Source: Roseimicrobium gellanilyticum (GTDB lineage Bacteria > Verrucomicrobiota > Verrucomicrobiia > Verrucomicrobiales > Verrucomicrobiaceae). From it: 64,000 bases of DNA. The stretch is taken from positions 186,001 through 250,000 of the forward strand of contig NZ_QNRR01000006.1 of assembly GCF_003315205.1 (NCBI RefSeq), in the 5' to 3' direction. Below are positions 33,910 through 42,683 of this stretch, one piece after another (the stretch's first letter is position 1; every line of letters begins with the position of its first letter). Under the pieces are notes generated by a model. That model saw only the letters and a list, made by a program, of their open reading frames with translations. It made no database searches and was not told where the DNA came from. Made by a program: the position numbers and the translations under genes.

Positions 33910-34368
33910 TCAAATCGGCCCAAAGACCTTCTCCCGCACGGCCACCACGGCATCCAGCACATCGTTCGCCTCAGCACGGAGCTTGGCGTTGAGGCTGCTG
34001 GTGGCTCGGTTGTAGCGTTTGTACAGGAAGGCCAGACGCGTCCGGACCTCGTCCTTGCTCATCTTCGCAGTGACACCGCAAATCTCCTCAGGCGACGGCC
34101 CCACCGGTTGCGCCGGGGCCTTAGGTTGCAGTGCCTGCGGTTGAGCGGGCGCTGGTGCCGGTGTGGGACTCTCAGGAGCAGCCGGCGCCGATTTCTTTGC
34201 CTCTCCTTCAGTAGGTGCCAGCGGCACGGGTGCGCGGGATGATTTCTCACGTCCCACGCTGGTCACCTTGGAGAGGACACTATCCCCATTGCTGCCATTG
34301 CGCGACTGGGCTGGCTTCTCCGCAGGAGCCTCCTTGGTTTTGAAGATGGTCTTGAGCTTCTCGAACAT
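33910..34368 (-). CDS. Small Pro/Ala-rich protein of the Hsp70 operon
   Basis: The protein has 152 residues. The first 90 are disordered and rich in Pro, Ala, Ser and Lys. The last 60 form a helical domain (SPEEICGVTAKMSKDEVRTRLAFLYKRYNRATSSLNAKLRAEANDVLDAVVAVREKVF). It lies 27 bp after the Hsp70 gene. The helix order (a first charged helix, then RLAFLYKRYNRATS, then a longer helix) recalls a J-domain core, but the HPD tripeptide that activates Hsp70 is absent. A client or regulatory adaptor of the Hsp70 is the best guess. ATG at 34368 fits the start MFEKLKTIFKTK. Confidence 0.6.
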   Translation of the reverse strand: MFEKLKTIFKTKEAPAEKPAQSRNGSNGDSVLSKVTSVGREKSSRAPVPLAPTEGEAKKSAPAAPESPTPAPAPAQPQALQPKAPAQPVGPSPEEICGVTAKMSKDEVRTRLAFLYKRYNRATSSLNAKLRAEANDVLDAVVAVREKVFGPI

Positions 34369-34395
34369 GCTGGGGGAGGGTTTCAAAAGTTCTCG

Positions 34396-35883
34396 CTACT
34401 CAATGCGCAGTTGCCGCAGCATGGAGCCGCGGTTCTCCAGCTCCTCATCCGTGAGGATGCCGGCGCCCTTGTAGGTCACGGCGATTTCCTGGGAGCGACC
34501 GCTTTCTTTGTCTACCACGAGGGCGCGCACACGCTGGTTTTCATCGTAGCTATAGGTCACTGCCACCTCGCATCCCGCAGGACGATTCGGTGGCACTTCG
34601 AGCGTGATCTTGCCAATCACATCCACGAAGCGCGGGTCCTCATCTTCACCTTGCGTGATGTCCACCTCAATGAAACGCTCGTTGGCATCGGAGGTGATGT
34701 AGATCTGCGTGTGCGAGCAGGGGATGGGTGTGTTCTTCGGGATGACGATCGAGTTCTTCACCCCCTCCTCACCCGTGGTTTGATTCACGATGTAAGCCAG
34801 GGTGCCATAGCTGGCATTGCACACTTCGCGCACGCGCGCGGACTTCCTTGCGAAGAGCGCCGCGCCCAGGGCCACGGCTTCATCCACATTGCCGCAAGAC
34901 TTGGGCGCCTTGCCAAAGAAACGTTCCAGCGCGATCTTCACCTTCGGGATGCGGGTGGAACCTCCCACCAGCACGACGTGATCGATGTCCCTGGGCTTCA
35001 GATTCACCCCTGCGAGCGCCTGCTCCACCAGCATGATGGCGCGGGTGAGCAGCTTTGTCACAAGCCTCTCAAACTGATCCCTGGTGAAGTCGATGCGCGC
35101 AATGCCATTCACATCGTTGCCGATGGTGTCATTCACGCGCTGCAGCTTGCTGAGCATCTTCTTCGCATCCTCGGCCGCATTCAGCACACGGCGGCGCTGG
35201 CGTTCATCCGTGAAGAGCTCGGCGCTGGTCTGCTTGCGATACTCATCCGCATAGAGATCCAGAAGCTGTTCGTCAAAGTTTGAACCTCCGAGGTGGCGGG
35301 CGCCTTCACTGGTCATGATGCGGAAGCCGTCGCCATCCACCTCGAGAATCGTCACATCCAGCGTGCCTCCGCCCAGATCAAATACCAGCACCTTGCCACG
35401 CACCCCCTGGCTGTGTGCGTAGTACACCGCGGCGGCGGTTGGTTCATTCACCAGGCGCCGCACCTTCATGCCGGCCATCTCGCTCGCAGCAATGGTGCTC
35501 TTGCGTGCCAGCTCATTGAAGTTCGCCGGCACTGTGATCACCGCCTCCTTGATGTCACCCACAATGCGCGAGCACTCACGCTTGAGCTTGCTCAGAATCA
35601 GCGCGGAGACTTCCGCAGGCGTCCACTTCTTCCCGTCGATCTCCACGAAATAATCCGGGTCATCCATGTGCCGCTTGATCTGGTAGATCGTACGGTTGGG
35701 ATCCCCGCCATCGCGAGCGGAACTGCCCACCAGCTTCACCTCCTCATGCGCATCAAAGTAGACGACTGAGGGCGTTAGCCGTTCTCCGTCTGCATTGGGG
35801 ACGATTTCAGGATGTCCATCCGGCTTGAGATAAGCCAGACCAGACAATGTGGTGCCGAGGTCGATGCCGACAAATTCCGCCAT
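34396..35883 (-). CDS. Lidless Hsp70 (DnaK-like) chaperone
   Basis: The protein has 495 residues against about 640 for DnaK. The ATPase domain is complete: GIDLGTTLSGLAYL (phosphate 1), VITVPANFNELARKSTIAASEMAG, NEPTAAAVYYA, FDLGGGTLDVTILEVDGDGF, VVLVGGSTRIPKVKIALERFFG. The linker and beta-sandwich substrate domain follow (about 385-480, IPKNTPIPCSHTQIYITSDANERFIEVDITQGED). The helical lid that would close over the peptide is missing; only a short charged end (ILTDEELENRGSMLRQLRIE) remains. It should bind clients weakly and release quickly unless a partner substitutes for the lid. It is second in an operon behind a GrpE-containing giant. Confidence 0.92.
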   Translation of the reverse strand: MAEFVGIDLGTTLSGLAYLKPDGHPEIVPNADGERLTPSVVYFDAHEEVKLVGSSARDGGDPNRTIYQIKRHMDDPDYFVEIDGKKWTPAEVSALILSKLKRECSRIVGDIKEAVITVPANFNELARKSTIAASEMAGMKVRRLVNEPTAAAVYYAHSQGVRGKVLVFDLGGGTLDVTILEVDGDGFRIMTSEGARHLGGSNFDEQLLDLYADEYRKQTSAELFTDERQRRRVLNAAEDAKKMLSKLQRVNDTIGNDVNGIARIDFTRDQFERLVTKLLTRAIMLVEQALAGVNLKPRDIDHVVLVGGSTRIPKVKIALERFFGKAPKSCGNVDEAVALGAALFARKSARVREVCNASYGTLAYIVNQTTGEEGVKNSIVIPKNTPIPCSHTQIYITSDANERFIEVDITQGEDEDPRFVDVIGKITLEVPPNRPAGCEVAVTYSYDENQRVRALVVDKESGRSQEIAVTYKGAGILTDEELENRGSMLRQLRIE

Positions 35884-35956
35884 GATTCGAGGGTTGAACT
35901 GAAGATCCTTAGCAGGATTCGCAGATCAAGACAAGCAACCGAAGCGGTATGAGCCA

Positions 35957-38900
35957 TTATTCGCTCGAAGTCTTGACCTCGACCTTGCGTAGAATCATTT
36001 CCCGGGCGCCATCAGGAGAATAGACGAAGCCAGGGCGGTAACTCTCTACGACACGCGGCCGCTGCTCACCGGTGACGTTCTCCACCACGGCAATGCGCTG
36101 ACGGAGAGCCACATCGACCTCAGTGCCTGAATCCACGCGGAACTCAGCGATGCCATGCTGGGAAAGAATATCTGCGAAGGACGCCCTCAACGTGCGAAGC
36201 TGCTGCTCCACTCCGTCCTGACCCGTGCCCGTGTAGCGCTGAATCAGAATGTCTATAAGGTCCAGTCTTTTGATAAGATCGTTGGCAAACAAGATGACGG
36301 TCTGCTCATCCGCGGCAGCAGACAGACCTCGCGAAAGGATGTCATGTTTCTGCTGCATATCCGCGATGCGCTCCTTCATCCTCGAAGCCAGCGACGTCTC
36401 CTCACGCTTGAGCTGATCACTGAAGAGCTGCTTCATCCCATCGAACTCACCACGCAGGCGCTCCACCATGCGGCGGTTCTCCTCTTCAGCCTGCTCACGT
36501 TCGCGACGCAGTTCTTCCTCGCGCCGCGTGTCCCGTTTGATGCTCTCCTCCAGCGCGGTAAGCCGCACCTGCAGACCCAGCTCCTGCTCGGCCATGCCGG
36601 CAAGGCCGCGATTCATCTCGCGCCTGCGTTCTTCCGCAAGCTCGAGTGCTTCGTTGATGGAGAGGATCTTGTCGCCGTTGCGGAAAAGTTCAGAGTAGCG
36701 CGACTCCGCTGCTGCAAACTTCTGCCGCAGAGCTTCGCCCGCTGATTCCTCTTCCTGGAGCTGTCGACGATGATTTTGCAAGGTGTTGACCAGGGCTTCC
36801 TCCTGCTGACGCAGGTTCTCGAAAGCCTTCTCCATCTCGGCAAGACGCGCTGCGGCGGCAGCTTCCCGTTCCTCGTGGCGCGCGCGCGCCGCGGCGGTGC
36901 TGGCCTTGAGCTCTTCCTCTTCTGCTTTCAGGGAGGCCATGCGCACAGTGGCCTGCTCTTGCTGGGCTCGCACAGCCGCCATTTCCTGCTCCACAGCCAC
37001 ACGCGACTGCTCCAGTTCCGCGCACTTTGCAGTGACGGCTTCATGGCGGGCGGTGGTCGCTGCGAACTCATCGTTCAGCATCTTCACCTTCGACTCCTCA
37101 CGTGCACGCTCGGTCTGGATGGCTTGGAGCTCTTCACGCACCTTGGCCATCTCCGCGGTGACTGCGGGAATGCCTGCGCGCACAGCCTTCTCTTCCTCCT
37201 GTGCAGCCAACACACGGCTCTCGACCTCGGCGCGCTTCGCATCCATCTGCTGGATGGCAATGGACACCCGCTCGAATTGCTTCGTGGCTTCCGCAACTCG
37301 CGCTTCCTCCGCCTTCGCACGACGGGATTGCTCATCCGCCTTGGCGCGGTCCACGGTCTCCTGGGTCGTCAGACCGGCAATGTCGCGGCGCAGCTTTTCA
37401 CGCTGCTTCTCGAGATCGGCAATGTTGCGTTCTTCCCCTGTGCGAAGCTGCTCGGTGGCCTTGAGGGCGGCCTGTGCTTCGCGCACCCGGTTTTCGAGAT
37501 CCTGCAGGTCAGCAAGGCGCTTCTCTGCCGGCACCAGCTTGGCCTGCACCGCCTCGAGCTTCTTCTCGGTCGCGGCGACGTCCGCCTGGCGCGCTGCAAT
37601 CGCGGCACCCACCTGCGCCATCTCCTCGCGGATGCCGACGGCACGATGGTTCTCAGCTTCGGCGAGCTGCTTCGCGACTTCGATCTCGCGCTTCGCCTGC
37701 TCCTGTTGCTGGCGCAGAGCGTCGAGCTGCGTGCGCTGGCCTTCCATCTCCTGCTTGGCGGCAACCAGGGCTTGATCGAGTTGCGTCTTCTCCTGCGTGG
37801 CCGCCGCAAGTCGCTGCGTCTCTTCTGCCGCTTGGCGTTCGAGCGTCTGGAACGCTTCCTTGGCTCCGGCAACCTTCTGCTCAATGTCGCGGAACTCCGC
37901 GATCTGACTCTCAAGCTCCAGCCGCTTTCTGGAGGCAATGGCGAGCTGGTCTTCGACACTGGCCAGCTCTGTTTGCTTCAGCGCGAGCACACGACCCGCC
38001 TCTCTTGCTGCAGCCTGATTCTCTCCGATCAGCGCAAACTGCGCGCTGGAATCCTGGGACAGCTTGGCAATGTTCTCCTGCAGGAATTCCTGTTGCTGCT
38101 TGTGGGTCTCGATGGAGCGCTGCAACTCCGCCGTCTTCGCCGCGAGTCCCTCCTGCTTCTGCTGCTCCAATTTCGCGCCTTCCAGCGCCAGCTTGAGTTT
38201 GGCCTCAGCATCCTCCTGGCCCTTGTTGGTCGCAGCAAGGAGGTCACGCGCGGAAGCGATCTTGCTCTCGGTGTCCTTCAGCGAGGCGAGCTGCTTGTCG
38301 ATTTCCTCGCGCTTCGTCTTGAACTCTTCGAAGGCCTTCTTCTCGGAAGCGACCTTCTGCTCCATCTCGGCAAGCGCCTTCTCTGCCTCGGTGGTGCGAG
38401 TCGCGAGTTTGGTCTCGGTCTCAGTCTTCTTGGCCTCGATATCTGCCAGCAGCTTGCGGGTCTTCTCGGTCGCCGTGGTCAGCTCTGCCACATTCTCTTC
38501 CAGACCAGCACGCTGACGGGAGAGTGTCAGCACCAGGAGATGCTGCGCAGCGCCCTTCTCGGCGGAGGCGGAAATTTCCTGCTCGCGCTCTTCGCGCTGC
38601 ACACTGAGGGTCGCAATCTGCTCCTGAACACGGGCTCGCTGCTCTTCCAGAGCCTGCACCGTCTTCGCAGAATCTTGAAGCTTCGTATCCGTGGAGGCGA
38701 GGTCGGACAGCTTGCGCATGACCTCCTCTTCCTGACGGCGCAACTGCTCGAGACGTTCTTCGGAGGAACGCGCGGCGCTTTCCATGTCCGACACGACGCG
38801 CTCGAGTTCTGCTCGTCTTGCCCCCAGCGCCTTTTCACCCTCTGCCGTGGTCGCACGCAGTTCTTCCAGGCGGGCACGCTCGGCTTCGTTCTCCTTGCGG

Positions 38901-41704
38901 ACAGTCTGCAGGGCTGCCTGCGCCTCCTGTTCGCGAGCCGCAATCTCCTTCAGCACGCTTTCCTGCGCGCTCACTCGCCCTGCCACCTCGCTCAATTCGC
39001 GGGTGCGCTCATGCATCTGCGCGGAAAGCGAAGTCAGCGATGCCTCCGCCTCGTTGCGCCGGGCCTCCACGGCCTCCAGTCGGGGTCTGGTCTCCACCAG
39101 CACCTTCTCCAGTTCGCGGAGTTCGTTGATTCTTCCCGTGAGTGCCGCAAGGACCGCGTCCATCGACTGGACCTTCCCCTCGGCATCACGCGCCTGTTGC
39201 TCGCGCTCGGCGGCAGCCTTTTCCAAGGAGGCCTGCTTCTCGGCAAAAGCTTTTTCCAGTTCCATCTGGCGCGCTGCCGCCGCAGCTTCCGCCTGGGCAA
39301 TCGCATCCTTGGCCACGGCCAGCTTTGCTTCGCGGTCGGTCAGTTCCCTCTGGACCGTCTCCATTTGGGTGGAGGCTTTGGTCTGCTGCACGATCACAGA
39401 AGCCAGCTTCTCAGCCGTCTGGGCCATCTCCGTCCTCTCCTGATCCTGCTGCGTGCGCAGGCGCGCAAGGGCAACTTCAGCAGCCGTTTGCTGCTCCTGG
39501 ATCAGTTTGAGTGCTTCATTCGCAGAGGCGAGACGGTTGTCCGTACCGGCAAGCTCCATCAGGCGGGTCTCGGCAGCGTTCCGCTTCGCTTCGTGCTCAG
39601 CCACGCGCATGTCGAGCACACGCAATTGCTCTTCACGCTGACTGATGGCCAGCTCCGTCGCGCCCTTCCGCTCCTCCAGCGCCTTGGCAGCCTGGTCAGA
39701 CTCGTTCCGCATCGACTGGAGCCGTTCCTGGGCAGCGGCCAGTTCCGCCTGAAGCGCGCGAACGCGCTCCTCCGTCATGCCATGAGCTTCCTGCGATTGA
39801 TTGGCCTTCGTGGCAGCGTCACGCAGACGCGTCTCCGCCTCGCGTGTCTGTTCAGCCACGGTCTGCTGGAGCTTCCTCGCGGTCTCAACTTCTTCACGGG
39901 CCGCGGCGAGGCGTGCGTTGACTTCAGCCAGATCTCTTTCCCTTGCAGTACGCTCGTTGAAGAGACCGGCAATGTTCTCCTCCAGATCCTTCTGCCGGGA
40001 CTGCATGGTGCCCACGGACCTGTTGAGATCATCCACACGGGAGGCAGCAGCCGCAGCCAGTGCAGCATCATTGCTCTCGCGCGTGGACACGTCACGAGCC
40101 ATCACAGAGATCTTCTCCTCCGCTTCGCGGATATCACGGGCCAGCTTCGCGAGATAGGCTTCCGCTTCCTGGCCTTCACGACCGGCACGTTCGCGCGTGC
40201 GCATTTCCGCGGCACGGTGCTCGGCAATCTGGGCCTGCACGGCATTCAGCTCCACAAGAGACTGATTGAGCTCCCGCTGCACCTCGGCGAACTGCATCCT
40301 CGCGTGCACCACTTCCTCTGATTCCGCACGTGCATCTACGGGCGCTGGGACCGGAGCGGCTGGCGGTGTCGGGGCCGGGGCCGGGGCTGGCGGCGCGGCT
40401 GCACCGGTTGACATGGAGCCCGGAGGCAACGGTGGTGTGAGGAAGCCCTGCGGAGCGTCCAGCACCAGCGGCTGCACATTCACACCCGCCGGGCCAGGAG
40501 GCACGGGAACCGGAGCAGGAGTCGGAGTCGGAGTCGGATCAATCGGTGCCACGGGCGGCATGCCCTGCACCGGAGGACTGGCAAAAGCAGCCGGCATGGC
40601 TCCGGCACCCACACGTACGCCGCGGGTGGACTTGAGCGTGGGCACCACACTCGTGTCCTTCATGGCAGGGGCCGGCCGGCCACCACCGTTTTTGTTGGAT
40701 CGAGCCGCAGGCGGCACGATCGCCTGATTCTTGGGATCGCCGGCCGCAGTGTCTGTGCTGCGATCAAGGGACTGAAGTTGCGGCGGCTTGAAAGACATCG
40801 CCCCAAGACCTACGCGCACGGAACGCGTCGCCTTGAGTGTGGGCACGGCACTCGTGGCGGTGGACGGCGCCTGACGCCCGCCAGCCGTCCTCATGGAAGG
40901 CTGCTGCGGAGCGGGCTGCGGTGCGAGTTGAGGAGGGGCTTGCGGTGGCGCGGGCGGCGGCGCAGGGAGCGGCGGGGCTGCCGAGAGCGACGCAGGCGGC
41001 GGCATGGCAGACAAGCCCTGCGGTGCCGCAAACGTGAGCGGAGCGTCACTCAACCCAACGGGAGGAGCCATGCTAAGGGAGGAGGGCGCGGCTGGCTCGA
41101 AGGTGATGGGAGCGGTCGCAGGAACACCGTCTTCCTCACGGTTCGCCGGCTTGGCGGGTGGACTGCCGAAGCGGGCGGCACCCGACGACGCAGGTGCGGA
41201 AAACGGCATTTTGCTATCGCGCAGTACCGGCACGGCACTGGTAGCCGCCATGGCAGCCTGATGTCCCTTGCCGCCTCCGTTCCTGACGGAAGCCGCACGC
41301 TCCGTGAGCTGCACCGCCTCGGTCTTTGACTCGGGTGCGCCACTCTGCTGGGCTTCACGCTTCTTCTCTTCCACGGATTTGCCGCTGCCTCTCGGCTGGC
41401 CGTTCTCCGTGTCCTGGGAATCCTTGAATTTTGCCTCGAGTCCACCAAAGCGAACCTTGTCACCCGGGCGCAGTACCGCACGCTCAACGCGCTTGCCATT
41501 CACAAAGGTCCCGTTCGACGACTTGAGATCAATCACCTCATAGCTGCCATCAGGTCGACGCGTCAGTTCCGCGTGAAAGCTGGAGATTTGGGAGCTGTCG
41601 ATGACGATTTCGTTGCGGCTGTTCCTCCCTAAAGAGAGTCGCGCATCTTCGAGGTCGAAGATGAATTCGTTACCGTTGTTGAGGTTGAAAGCCAGATAAG
41701 GCAT
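35957..41704 (-). CDS. Giant FHA / coiled-coil / GrpE-like protein
   Basis: The protein has 1915 residues. Residues 1-95 are an FHA domain with the pThr-binding residues (Gly26-Arg27, Ser42, His44, Asn64-Gly65, Asn69-Gly70). Residues about 96-460 are a Pro/Ala-rich linker with three TS-A/V-VP-T/V-L motifs at Thr155, Thr284 and Thr351. Residues about 461-1800 are an almost continuous coiled coil with no Pro. The last 110 residues (from about 1806) look like GrpE: LIKRLDLIDILIQRYTG, a GVEQQLRTLRASFADILSQHGI helix, then short strands ending RPRVVESYRPGFVYSPDGAREMILRKVEV. GrpE domains release ADP from Hsp70, and the next gene is an Hsp70. The antisense strand also carries a long open frame, which I treat as a shadow. 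Confidence 0.85.
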   Translation of the reverse strand: MPYLAFNLNNGNEFIFDLEDARLSLGRNSRNEIVIDSSQISSFHAELTRRPDGSYEVIDLKSSNGTFVNGKRVERAVLRPGDKVRFGGLEAKFKDSQDTENGQPRGSGKSVEEKKREAQQSGAPESKTEAVQLTERAASVRNGGGKGHQAAMAATSAVPVLRDSKMPFSAPASSGAARFGSPPAKPANREEDGVPATAPITFEPAAPSSLSMAPPVGLSDAPLTFAAPQGLSAMPPPASLSAAPPLPAPPPAPPQAPPQLAPQPAPQQPSMRTAGGRQAPSTATSAVPTLKATRSVRVGLGAMSFKPPQLQSLDRSTDTAAGDPKNQAIVPPAARSNKNGGGRPAPAMKDTSVVPTLKSTRGVRVGAGAMPAAFASPPVQGMPPVAPIDPTPTPTPAPVPVPPGPAGVNVQPLVLDAPQGFLTPPLPPGSMSTGAAAPPAPAPAPTPPAAPVPAPVDARAESEEVVHARMQFAEVQRELNQSLVELNAVQAQIAEHRAAEMRTRERAGREGQEAEAYLAKLARDIREAEEKISVMARDVSTRESNDAALAAAAASRVDDLNRSVGTMQSRQKDLEENIAGLFNERTARERDLAEVNARLAAAREEVETARKLQQTVAEQTREAETRLRDAATKANQSQEAHGMTEERVRALQAELAAAQERLQSMRNESDQAAKALEERKGATELAISQREEQLRVLDMRVAEHEAKRNAAETRLMELAGTDNRLASANEALKLIQEQQTAAEVALARLRTQQDQERTEMAQTAEKLASVIVQQTKASTQMETVQRELTDREAKLAVAKDAIAQAEAAAAARQMELEKAFAEKQASLEKAAAEREQQARDAEGKVQSMDAVLAALTGRINELRELEKVLVETRPRLEAVEARRNEAEASLTSLSAQMHERTRELSEVAGRVSAQESVLKEIAAREQEAQAALQTVRKENEAERARLEELRATTAEGEKALGARRAELERVVSDMESAARSSEERLEQLRRQEEEVMRKLSDLASTDTKLQDSAKTVQALEEQRARVQEQIATLSVQREEREQEISASAEKGAAQHLLVLTLSRQRAGLEENVAELTTATEKTRKLLADIEAKKTETETKLATRTTEAEKALAEMEQKVASEKKAFEEFKTKREEIDKQLASLKDTESKIASARDLLAATNKGQEDAEAKLKLALEGAKLEQQKQEGLAAKTAELQRSIETHKQQQEFLQENIAKLSQDSSAQFALIGENQAAAREAGRVLALKQTELASVEDQLAIASRKRLELESQIAEFRDIEQKVAGAKEAFQTLERQAAEETQRLAAATQEKTQLDQALVAAKQEMEGQRTQLDALRQQQEQAKREIEVAKQLAEAENHRAVGIREEMAQVGAAIAARQADVAATEKKLEAVQAKLVPAEKRLADLQDLENRVREAQAALKATEQLRTGEERNIADLEKQREKLRRDIAGLTTQETVDRAKADEQSRRAKAEEARVAEATKQFERVSIAIQQMDAKRAEVESRVLAAQEEEKAVRAGIPAVTAEMAKVREELQAIQTERAREESKVKMLNDEFAATTARHEAVTAKCAELEQSRVAVEQEMAAVRAQQEQATVRMASLKAEEEELKASTAAARARHEEREAAAAARLAEMEKAFENLRQQEEALVNTLQNHRRQLQEEESAGEALRQKFAAAESRYSELFRNGDKILSINEALELAEERRREMNRGLAGMAEQELGLQVRLTALEESIKRDTRREEELRREREQAEEENRRMVERLRGEFDGMKQLFSDQLKREETSLASRMKERIADMQQKHDILSRGLSAAADEQTVILFANDLIKRLDLIDILIQRYTGTGQDGVEQQLRTLRASFADILSQHGIAEFRVDSGTEVDVALRQRIAVVENVTGEQRPRVVESYRPGFVYSPDGAREMILRKVEVKTSSE

Positions 41705-41891
41705 GATTTAGAGTCAGCGGGACTGCAATATTTATTAAATTTAGGTATGGTTTTTTTCCGAGGCAACGCAAACGTGCCTCAATTAAGGCTTAGTTGTCAT
41801 TTGCACGGCATCCGGAAAATCCCTCATACGCGATTGGCTTGTGCCGGCCTCTCGACTGTGCCCGGGCTCCACCGCGACCACACCACAACGC

Positions 41892-42683
41892 ATGAACCTC
41901 CTCCCCCTTAGTTGGTTTCGATACACCCTCTTGTTTCTTCTAAGCGTCGTTAGTTTTGGCTCTTATGCACACGCTCTGAACGACGCCGACCTGCAGCGTA
42001 TTGGGAAGCGTATCTGGCAGAATGAATGTGCTGGCACCGTCGAAGGACTGACAAGCTGGAACTCGGGTGAGAACTTCGCCTCCCTCGGCATCGGTCATTT
42101 CATCTGGTATCCGGAGGGCGTGGACGGTCCCTTTGAGGAAAGCTTTCCCAAGCTCGTGCAATGGTTTCGCCAGCGAGGCGTGAATTTGCCCGCATGGCTG
42201 CTCTCCACCAAAGACTGTCCGTGGCCCAATCAAGCCGCCTTTGCCAGGGACCGTGAAGGCAGCCGGCAGAAGGATCTCCGGAAATTGCTCGCCTCAACGA
42301 TCAGCGAGCAGACCTTGTTCATCATCGCGCGGCTCGATCAGGCCGCTCCCCGCCTGGTGCAGGCAGCCGGAAAGAATGGGGCCCTGGTCGAGCGGAACAT
42401 CGCCTTCCTGCGCCAGACGGCGGCGGGAAATTTTGCCCTCATTGACTATGTAAACTTCAAAGGCGAAGGCCTGAATCCCAAGGAGCGCTACAAGGGTGAG
42501 GGCTGGGGCCTTCTCCAAGTTCTCATCAACATGCGCCCGGCAGATGCAGCCAGCGCCCCCGCCGCTTTTGCAAAGTCCTCCCAGCAGGTGCTGGCCCGTC
42601 GCGTGGCCAACAGTCCCGCCGAAAGGGGCGAAAAACGCTGGCTCGCAGGCTGGAGCAACCGCTGCGCCGCATACGCAAAGTAA
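41892..42683 (+). CDS. Secreted lysozyme-like protein (tentative)
   Basis: The protein has 263 residues with a signal peptide (FRYTLLFLLSVVSFGSYAHA). Residues 27-60 read IGKRIWQNECAGTVEGLTSWNSGENFASLGIGHFIWYP. The E-x-n-SLGIGH order resembles phage T4-type lysozymes, where a Glu is followed by T-x-GIGH. The rest is helical with long amphipathic stretches. I infer a peptidoglycan-active enzyme but cannot assign the family. It is divergent from the giant FHA gene with 187 bp between starts, and stands 44 bp before the ndk promoter. Confidence 0.55.
   Translation: MNLLPLSWFRYTLLFLLSVVSFGSYAHALNDADLQRIGKRIWQNECAGTVEGLTSWNSGENFASLGIGHFIWYPEGVDGPFEESFPKLVQWFRQRGVNLPAWLLSTKDCPWPNQAAFARDREGSRQKDLRKLLASTISEQTLFIIARLDQAAPRLVQAAGKNGALVERNIAFLRQTAAGNFALIDYVNFKGEGLNPKERYKGEGWGLLQVLINMRPADAASAPAAFAKSSQQVLARRVANSPAERGEKRWLAGWSNRCAAYAK

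Follow-up and report, generated by a model that had tools for sequence, protein, structure and literature searches.

We examined a 64,000-nucleotide stretch of Roseimicrobium gellanilyticum DNA (contig NZ_QNRR01000006.1, positions 186,001 to 250,000; the whole stretch is called the window below), in which three adjacent minus-strand genes encode a giant protein joining an FHA domain, a very long coiled coil and a divergent GrpE end, an Hsp70 without its helical lid, and a small protein with a probable J-like domain. A preliminary description, made from the letters of the sequence, had placed these genes with gaps of 73 bp and 27 bp between them, and the open reading frame (ORF) list agrees with this arrangement at the expected coordinates. 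The 27-bp gap and the 152-residue length of the third product were obtained by taking the ATG at 34368 as its start; the ORF as listed, 33910-34386, opens with TTG. The features of the locus are given here in window coordinates, with their basis in brackets.

35957-41704, minus strand: FHA-coiled-coil-GrpE protein, 1,915 amino acids, ATG start (ORF list; Pfam FHA and GrpE)
41444-41635, minus strand: FHA domain, residues 24-87 of the giant, with R27, S41 and N64 present (Pfam)
40295-41389, minus strand: Pro/Ala-rich linker, residues 106-470, 20% Pro (composition)
36314-40294, minus strand: coiled coil of about 1,300 residues, 471-1797 (heptad lags, few prolines, AlphaFold2 helix)
36017-36496, minus strand: GrpE domain by profile and prediction, residues 1737-1896, with stalk helix, helical bundle and beta wing (Pfam, hhalign, AlphaFold2, Foldseek, VIA)
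34396-35883, minus strand: lidless Hsp70, 495 amino acids, ATG start (ORF list; Pfam HSP70)
34798-34830, minus strand: interdomain linker position of the Hsp70, REVCNASYGTL replacing a VLLLD-type linker (alignment)
33910-34368, minus strand: small partner with a probable C-terminal J-like domain, 152 amino acids (ORF; relatives)
33919-34092, minus strand: probable J-like domain, residues 93-150, with short helix I, helix II and helix III, and N120-R121-A122 at the HPD position (AlphaFold2, PDB comparison, hhalign)

The C-terminus of the giant is, by profile and predicted fold, a divergent GrpE, in agreement with the preliminary description. With the Pfam GrpE profile (PF01025, cutoff 25.8 bits) the whole protein scored 23.5 bits (E 5e-5), under the cutoff; its last 186 residues alone scored 30.3 bits (E 4.1e-7), over it, and its last 146 residues scored 24.8 bits, again under it. 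Among relatives scanned as whole proteins, the cutoff was passed in G006 (35.4 bits) and L189 (28.4 bits), and L036 (22.1 bits) fell below it. When a profile of 19 relatives of the giant was aligned by hhalign with 31 canonical GrpE ORFs, some loci overlapping among these sequences, the probability was 96.1% and E 3.6e-9. AlphaFold2 modelled residues 1701-1915 with a mean predicted local distance difference test score (pLDDT) of 88.6 and a predicted TM-score (pTM) of 0.50; in the model helix 2-97 is uninterrupted and is followed by two helices of the bundle and a wing rich in strands, and since the coil enters the GrpE stalk helix without a break, the giant can fairly be called a GrpE with a lengthened stalk. 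Foldseek against the PDB placed GrpE at ranks 1-10 (E 1.1e-5 to 3.3e-3), the first non-GrpE match being unrelated at E 0.42. In the VIA comparison the first six rows were GrpE (Z 12.8-9.8, root mean square deviation 8.6-17.6 over long flexible helices), followed by an unrelated row at Z 7.2 and a seventh GrpE entry at 6.8; Z of such size may arise among helical proteins. An artefact of coiled-coil composition was considered as the source of the GrpE match and rejected: the last 113 residues, past the long helix, still gave 22.2 bits (E 1.2e-4, under the cutoff), Pfam found a single matching stretch in the giant, and a 294-residue relative that is nearly free of coil matched over its residues 170-286 (19.9 bits, under the cutoff).

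At the opposite end, the FHA domain named in the preliminary description was recovered by Pfam at E 3.2e-20. R27, S41 and N64, which we take to be the positions that bind phosphothreonine, were present in 56, 57 and 54 of 59 aligned proteins, respectively, and H44 in all 59 (some genomes are represented twice in this set, and the L143 protein is cut at a contig edge); judged by its residues, the domain appears to keep a mostly intact phosphothreonine-binding site. The Pro/Ala-rich linker that follows carries three copies of the motif TS.VP.L[KR] (residues 153-172, 282-301 and 349-368), found among the 59 proteins only in the window and a sister genome, and possibly serving for docking or phosphorylation. 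The coiled coil, put at roughly 1,300 residues at the outset, was borne out by its heptad periodicity: self-comparison peaked at lags 14 and 28, and there are three prolines in residues 471-1800. The same self-comparison showed no strong internal repeat to account for the length of the coil, which would span about 190-200 nm if fully stretched. Matches to SMC proteins were confined to the coil and lay far under their cutoffs, and membership of that family was rejected. Among the 59 FHA-GrpE proteins whose two ends share a single ORF, lengths vary between 294 and 2,388 residues; the short ones (294-621 residues) all come from outside the window's family, Verrucomicrobiaceae, and the 294-residue member, which consists of FHA and GrpE with almost no coil, is encoded beside the Hsp70. 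Because length appears free to drift and coil identity is low, a tether or spacer fits better than a ruler of fixed length; the preliminary description had proposed a ruler or scaffold role for the stalk.

The second gene product had been described as an Hsp70 with a full ATPase domain and the beta part of the substrate-binding domain (SBD-beta) and without a lid, and the Pfam HSP70 match bears this out. The match covers residues 5-483 of 495 (E 5.8e-102) and profile positions 2-508 of 599, from which end point the helical lid (SBD-alpha) is judged to be absent; 38 orthologous ORFs are 495-540 amino acids long by mechanically assigned starts. The actin-like ATPase, SBD-beta and the catalytic residues are all present. 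We aligned 39 family sequences and 7 more distant ones, with a correspondence to E. coli residue numbering that is in part our assumption. All 39 family proteins keep the K70 and E171 equivalents, and 38 of them DLGGGT, the other having DMGGGT. Where the genome's own DnaK and HscA-like proteins have the VLLLD linker, 38 of the 39 carry EVCNxSYG and one carries EICNxSYG; the replacement has close variants in four order-level Hsp70s (EVANTGYG in one) and is recognisable in three distant ones. The R167 equivalent is kept in 38 of the 39 and is Gly in the three distant ones. According to PMC8215388, the HPD histidine of DnaJ contacts linker residue L391 of DnaK, and the HPD aspartate contacts R167 and Q378; at the present locus the changes in the Hsp70 linker and in HPD occur in the same genomes. 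The protein is 34-36% identical over long stretches to the three other Hsp70s of its genome. A plasmid search with it gave 94 records, the best ten of which were 37.5-39.9% identical, and the annotated ones among these ten are named dnaK.

The conserved part of the third protein is its C-terminal 58 residues, predicted by AlphaFold2 as one short and two long helices (pLDDT 84-96; the remainder below about 61). The preliminary description had supposed that this protein may stand in for a J-protein while lacking HPD. The absence of HPD was confirmed, the motif occurring in 0 of 31 aligned sequences and 0 of the 15 used for profile comparison; at its position the window's protein has N-R-A, the variants being N-R-A/S, with the Asn invariant in 31/31 and 15/15. 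The J-like domain itself is quite probable, by profile and fold matches that are weak and are weighed below. Two distant Verrucomicrobiota genomes encode larger proteins that finish in this domain and carry a hydrophobic segment at the N-terminus, and in one of these two a TerB domain (Pfam E 4.6e-12) lies ahead of it; the TerB-bearing protein gave a weak NCBIfam DjlA match (E 2.2e-4, far under the cutoff), and its layout of TerB followed by the J-like domain resembles that of DjlA. A plasmid search with this TerB-J-like protein returned no match.

We surveyed 57 genomes including the window's own, 36 in the family and 21 outside. The giant's C-terminus was found in 44 (36/36 and 8/21), the Hsp70, counted at E <=1e-100, in 40 (34/36 and 6/21), and the third protein in 42 (34/36 and 8/21). 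The third protein accompanied the Hsp70 in 40 of 40 genomes, own included; in G039 and G051 the third protein was found but no Hsp70 reached that threshold, and in G051 a partial Hsp70 lies at a contig edge. Twenty regions were fetched, of which 12 hold the full trio and 8 FHA-GrpE alone (in one of the eight, L048, the FHA and GrpE ends are split over two overlapping ORFs). Named genomes supplied 49 loci, titled as Verrucomicrobiaceae genera or as Verrucomicrobia/Verrucomicrobiota bacteria except for two metagenome-assembled genomes. At least 2.4 kb of downstream sequence was available for 43 of these loci, the other six being too short to judge, and 38 of the 43 have giant, Hsp70 and third gene in order; the other five are L138, with the third gene and a partial Hsp70, and four with neither partner. 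The same order in relatives argues that the arrangement does not arise by chance. The two exceptionally titled records are named Akkermansia muciniphila (L123, L147); both carry the trio, and the titles are perhaps mislabelled.

Further draws from the phylum (288 and 387 genomes) are samples and no census. Search A1 matched 9 of 288 genomes, seven of the family plus G224 (E 5.6e-8) and G303 (E 1.7e-4). Search A3, which includes the G224 and G303 sequences, matched 14 of 387: the nine genomes already matched by A1 came in below E 1e-20, and five others at E 0.002-0.009 were not counted as real. Search A7 matched 14 of 387 genomes with E up to 1e-112; five of these scored 377-396 bits, near the 338 bits given by the genome's own DnaK.

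The window's genome also has a canonical GrpE gene separate from the trio, four J-domain matches elsewhere (three above the cutoff) and, besides the lidless one, three Hsp70 genes and a weak MreB-like match; two of these other Hsp70 genes adjoin genes with J-type sequences (the basis includes L055). With canonical GrpE, DnaJ and Hsp70 genes of its own, the genome holds the trio as an addition and no replacement. G224 and G303 have a weakly GrpE-like gene followed by one or two Hsp70 copies and then a J-like gene; the Hsp70s are 40-42% identical to the window's, and no FHA match was found in the GrpE-like proteins. A three-part operon may thus have come first, FHA and coil joining GrpE later, in this bacterial order. 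Other Verrucomicrobiota (L183, L184, L185 and L186) have a divergent GrpE gene, then a short Hsp70 (520-537 amino acids), then a protein of 533-558 amino acids, which in L183, the only one scanned, has a sulfatase-modifying-factor domain; by these short Hsp70s following a GrpE gene, secondary GrpE-Hsp70 pairs are not rare.

From domain content and linkage, the locus is best read as a second, dedicated machine of nucleotide exchange factor, Hsp70 and J-like protein, in which the exchange factor has been turned into an FHA-steered tether; we put this reading slightly above an even chance. Domain identities, the GrpE fold, lid loss, linker replacement, HPD absence and gene linkage come from sequence or prediction, and on them are built a proposed dimer, Hsp70 binding, exchange activity, phospho-docking, membrane contact and client. 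The exchange factor would be a GrpE dimer whose paired stalk helices have lengthened into the coiled coil of about 1,300 residues, and the far end of the rod would bear the disordered Pro/Ala linker and two FHA domains per dimer. The FHA end predicts docking on a phosphothreonine protein; the GrpE end would make the lidless Hsp70 give up its nucleotide, so that clients would bind and leave quickly, and only at the docking site. The HPD-less J-like protein would act as adaptor or regulator, possibly at the membrane, and not as a classical ATPase trigger. HPD, the VLLLD linker and the lid having been lost in parallel, the cycle is predicted to differ from that of DnaK. An extended version, in which a leashed chaperone is steered by a kinase, a GrpE-dimer rod of ~200 nm places Hsp70 at phosphothreonine sites, and the HPD-linker trigger was abandoned jointly so that the tethered exchange factor sets the cycle, strikes us as unlikely. 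Were the dedicated-machine reading true, this GrpE would bring a targeting domain along with it, and lid, linker and J trigger would all be altered together in one bacterial Hsp70 machine, a natural experiment on what the Hsp70 cycle can do without. The window's family has cultured members, and with the giant in all 36 family genomes searched (the Hsp70 in 34) genetics should be feasible.

Several observations weigh against the dedicated machine, and some of them favour a rather doubtful alternative, that the giant serves chiefly as a structural scaffold or spacer whose GrpE end is a dimer cap or docking site, the Hsp70 pair being cargo or an independent neighbour. The expectation that the three genes stay together held for their order at most loci and failed as a strict partnership. 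G012 (L189), complete on one contig, keeps an intact giant and gave no match for the Hsp70 or the third gene; in their place lie ORFs that share a repeated N-terminal sequence (LPYRVSGVGWV...). G021 (76% complete) has the giant and no match for either partner, G037, G040 and G056 have FHA-GrpE and no match for the pair, and giant and Hsp70 are on different contigs in G003, G006, G013, G019, G034 and G054. In G041 a 1,075-residue FHA-coil protein (L190:5147-8374, minus strand) lies directly upstream of the lidless Hsp70 and third gene, and GrpE was not detectable in it. In G053 all three genes have a second copy, Hsp70 and third gene sharing one contig and the FHA-GrpE lying on a different one. 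Because of the exceptions lacking the pair, the giant would have some value apart from this Hsp70, perhaps with DnaK. The coil is also long and variable, and its conservation is poor: over 31 loci its median identity to the window is 29%, vs 52% for GrpE and 78% for the Hsp70 (FHA 61%). Yet the better conservation of the GrpE end, its full fold in the prediction, the nearly coil-free FHA and GrpE protein of 294 residues beside the Hsp70, and the two distant operons with a weakly GrpE-like gene, Hsp70 and J-like gene but no FHA match all speak against a mere scaffold. Among order-level relatives, whole-protein Pfam GrpE scores were under the cutoff in L044 (21.4 bits), L046 (19.9 bits) and L050 (16.4 bits), and the Pfam scan lists no GrpE for L042, L045, L047 and L049. 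The GrpE-like genes of G224 and G303 gave 16.0 and 20.1 bits, under the cutoff (5.9 and 11.4 bits in single-sequence scans), and neither was picked up by our own GrpE models at E 0.01. Finally, PMC8215388 names two salt bridges for the DnaK cleft. Among the equivalent residues of 39 family Hsp70s, K55 is Arg and E267 is Glu in 39/39; R56 is Asp in 39/39 and E264 is Glu in 0/39. One of the two bridges is thus lost, from which intrinsic exchange is predicted to be faster and a GrpE less needed.

Two other alternatives concern the setting of the trio and its smallest member. We regard it as quite improbable that the trio forms a chaperone module specialised for conflict or stress response, akin to the Hsp70-GrpE-DnaJ sets of GTPase-centred conflict systems. 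According to PMC7159879, about 14% of GAP1-N2 neighbourhoods contain Hsp70 and GrpE genes together with a DnaJ or tetratricopeptide-repeat fusion protein; the distant relative L072 adjoins a type I restriction-like gene, and PADLOC matched LmuB to giant residues 521-1141 at 29.6 bits. However, the LmuB match and the further ones to LmuB (15.8 bits) and JetC (12.4 bits) lie in the coil, PADLOC gave none for the Hsp70, the third protein or the relatives scanned, and no GTPase family matched the six scanned window ORFs outside the trio (neighbour genes in other genomes were clustered only, without annotation). A methyltransferase match at the giant's C-terminus reached 14.2 bits. The giant in 36/36 family genomes and each partner in 34/36 are moreover unlike mobile defence genes, and we found membership of a defence system unsupported. 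The third protein might instead be an unrelated helical-hairpin adaptor, in which case the operon would have no J-type component and would borrow DnaJ; this too we doubt. Its profile and fold scores are weak and of a kind common to ribosomal and other helical proteins, which weighs equally against a J-like partner in the dedicated machine: the best Foldseek E was 0.89, the best J domain in VIA had Z 6.3 and was outranked by two unrelated rows (6.7 and 6.6), with ribosomal hairpins interspersed, and Pfam DnaJ found no match. By hhalign, 15 third-protein sequences against 27 J domains scored 21.2 (P 9.2e-4) with a probability of 22.6%; leaving out the two distant sequences lowered score and probability to 18.2 and 7.7%, and one of 11 GrpE helix windows scored 20.1 vs 21.2 for J. 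An amphipathic N-terminus, present in 27 of 31 third proteins, is not evident in the window's copy. Against the hairpin, helices I-III align in the same register, none of 150 column shuffles scored as high as 21.2 (maximum 18.2; reversed J 9.1), Foldseek rows 1-10 were all J-domain or Hsp40 chains (E 0.89-3.1, probability <=0.75), and the distant relative has TerB and the weak DjlA match. Fold, register and the DjlA-like context thus make the J-like assignment probable, if statistically not decisive.

Two further frames lie at the locus. Divergent from the giant is a plus-strand gene (41841-42683) for a 280-residue protein, for which Pfam gave no match over cutoff; members of its cluster occur in 14 of 36 loci compared. 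Antisense to the coil is a plus-strand open frame of 1,183 amino acids (36770-40321), which most likely results from codon use at high G+C. A scan of the locus for promoters and terminators was uninformative.

Among the matches listed in a search of the open-access literature, no title or abstract describes an FHA-GrpE fusion or this operon. The giant shares with GrpE (PF01025) the stalk helix, helical bundle and beta wing in that order, its best PDB folds all being GrpE; it differs by the N-terminal FHA fusion and about 1,300 residues of coil, whereas the stalk of GrpE is about 70 residues and its disordered N-terminus 40-50 according to a GrpE review (PMC12987570), in which the term FHA does not appear. 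In Myxococcus xanthus the MXAN_6672-mxdnaK2 operon likewise pairs a GrpE homologue with a specialised second DnaK, but the excerpt of that report (PMC11019930) mentions no FHA-coil fusion or J-like gene. GAP1-N2 conflict neighbourhoods (PMC7159879) share a secondary Hsp70 set with its own GrpE and DnaJ; in the window, none of the six ORFs scanned outside the trio is a GTPase. The Hsp70 has in common with DnaK, HscA and HscC the ATPase motifs, the K70 and E171 equivalents and SBD-beta, and differs in having neither helical lid nor VLLLD linker. Pam16 is a J-like protein without HPD. The third protein probably shares, by prediction, a J-like fold with DjlA and Pam16; the window's copy has neither TerB nor a membrane segment and carries N-R-A/S in place of HPD, whereas its two distant relatives come nearer to DjlA, with an N-terminal hydrophobic segment in both and TerB in one ahead of the J-like domain.

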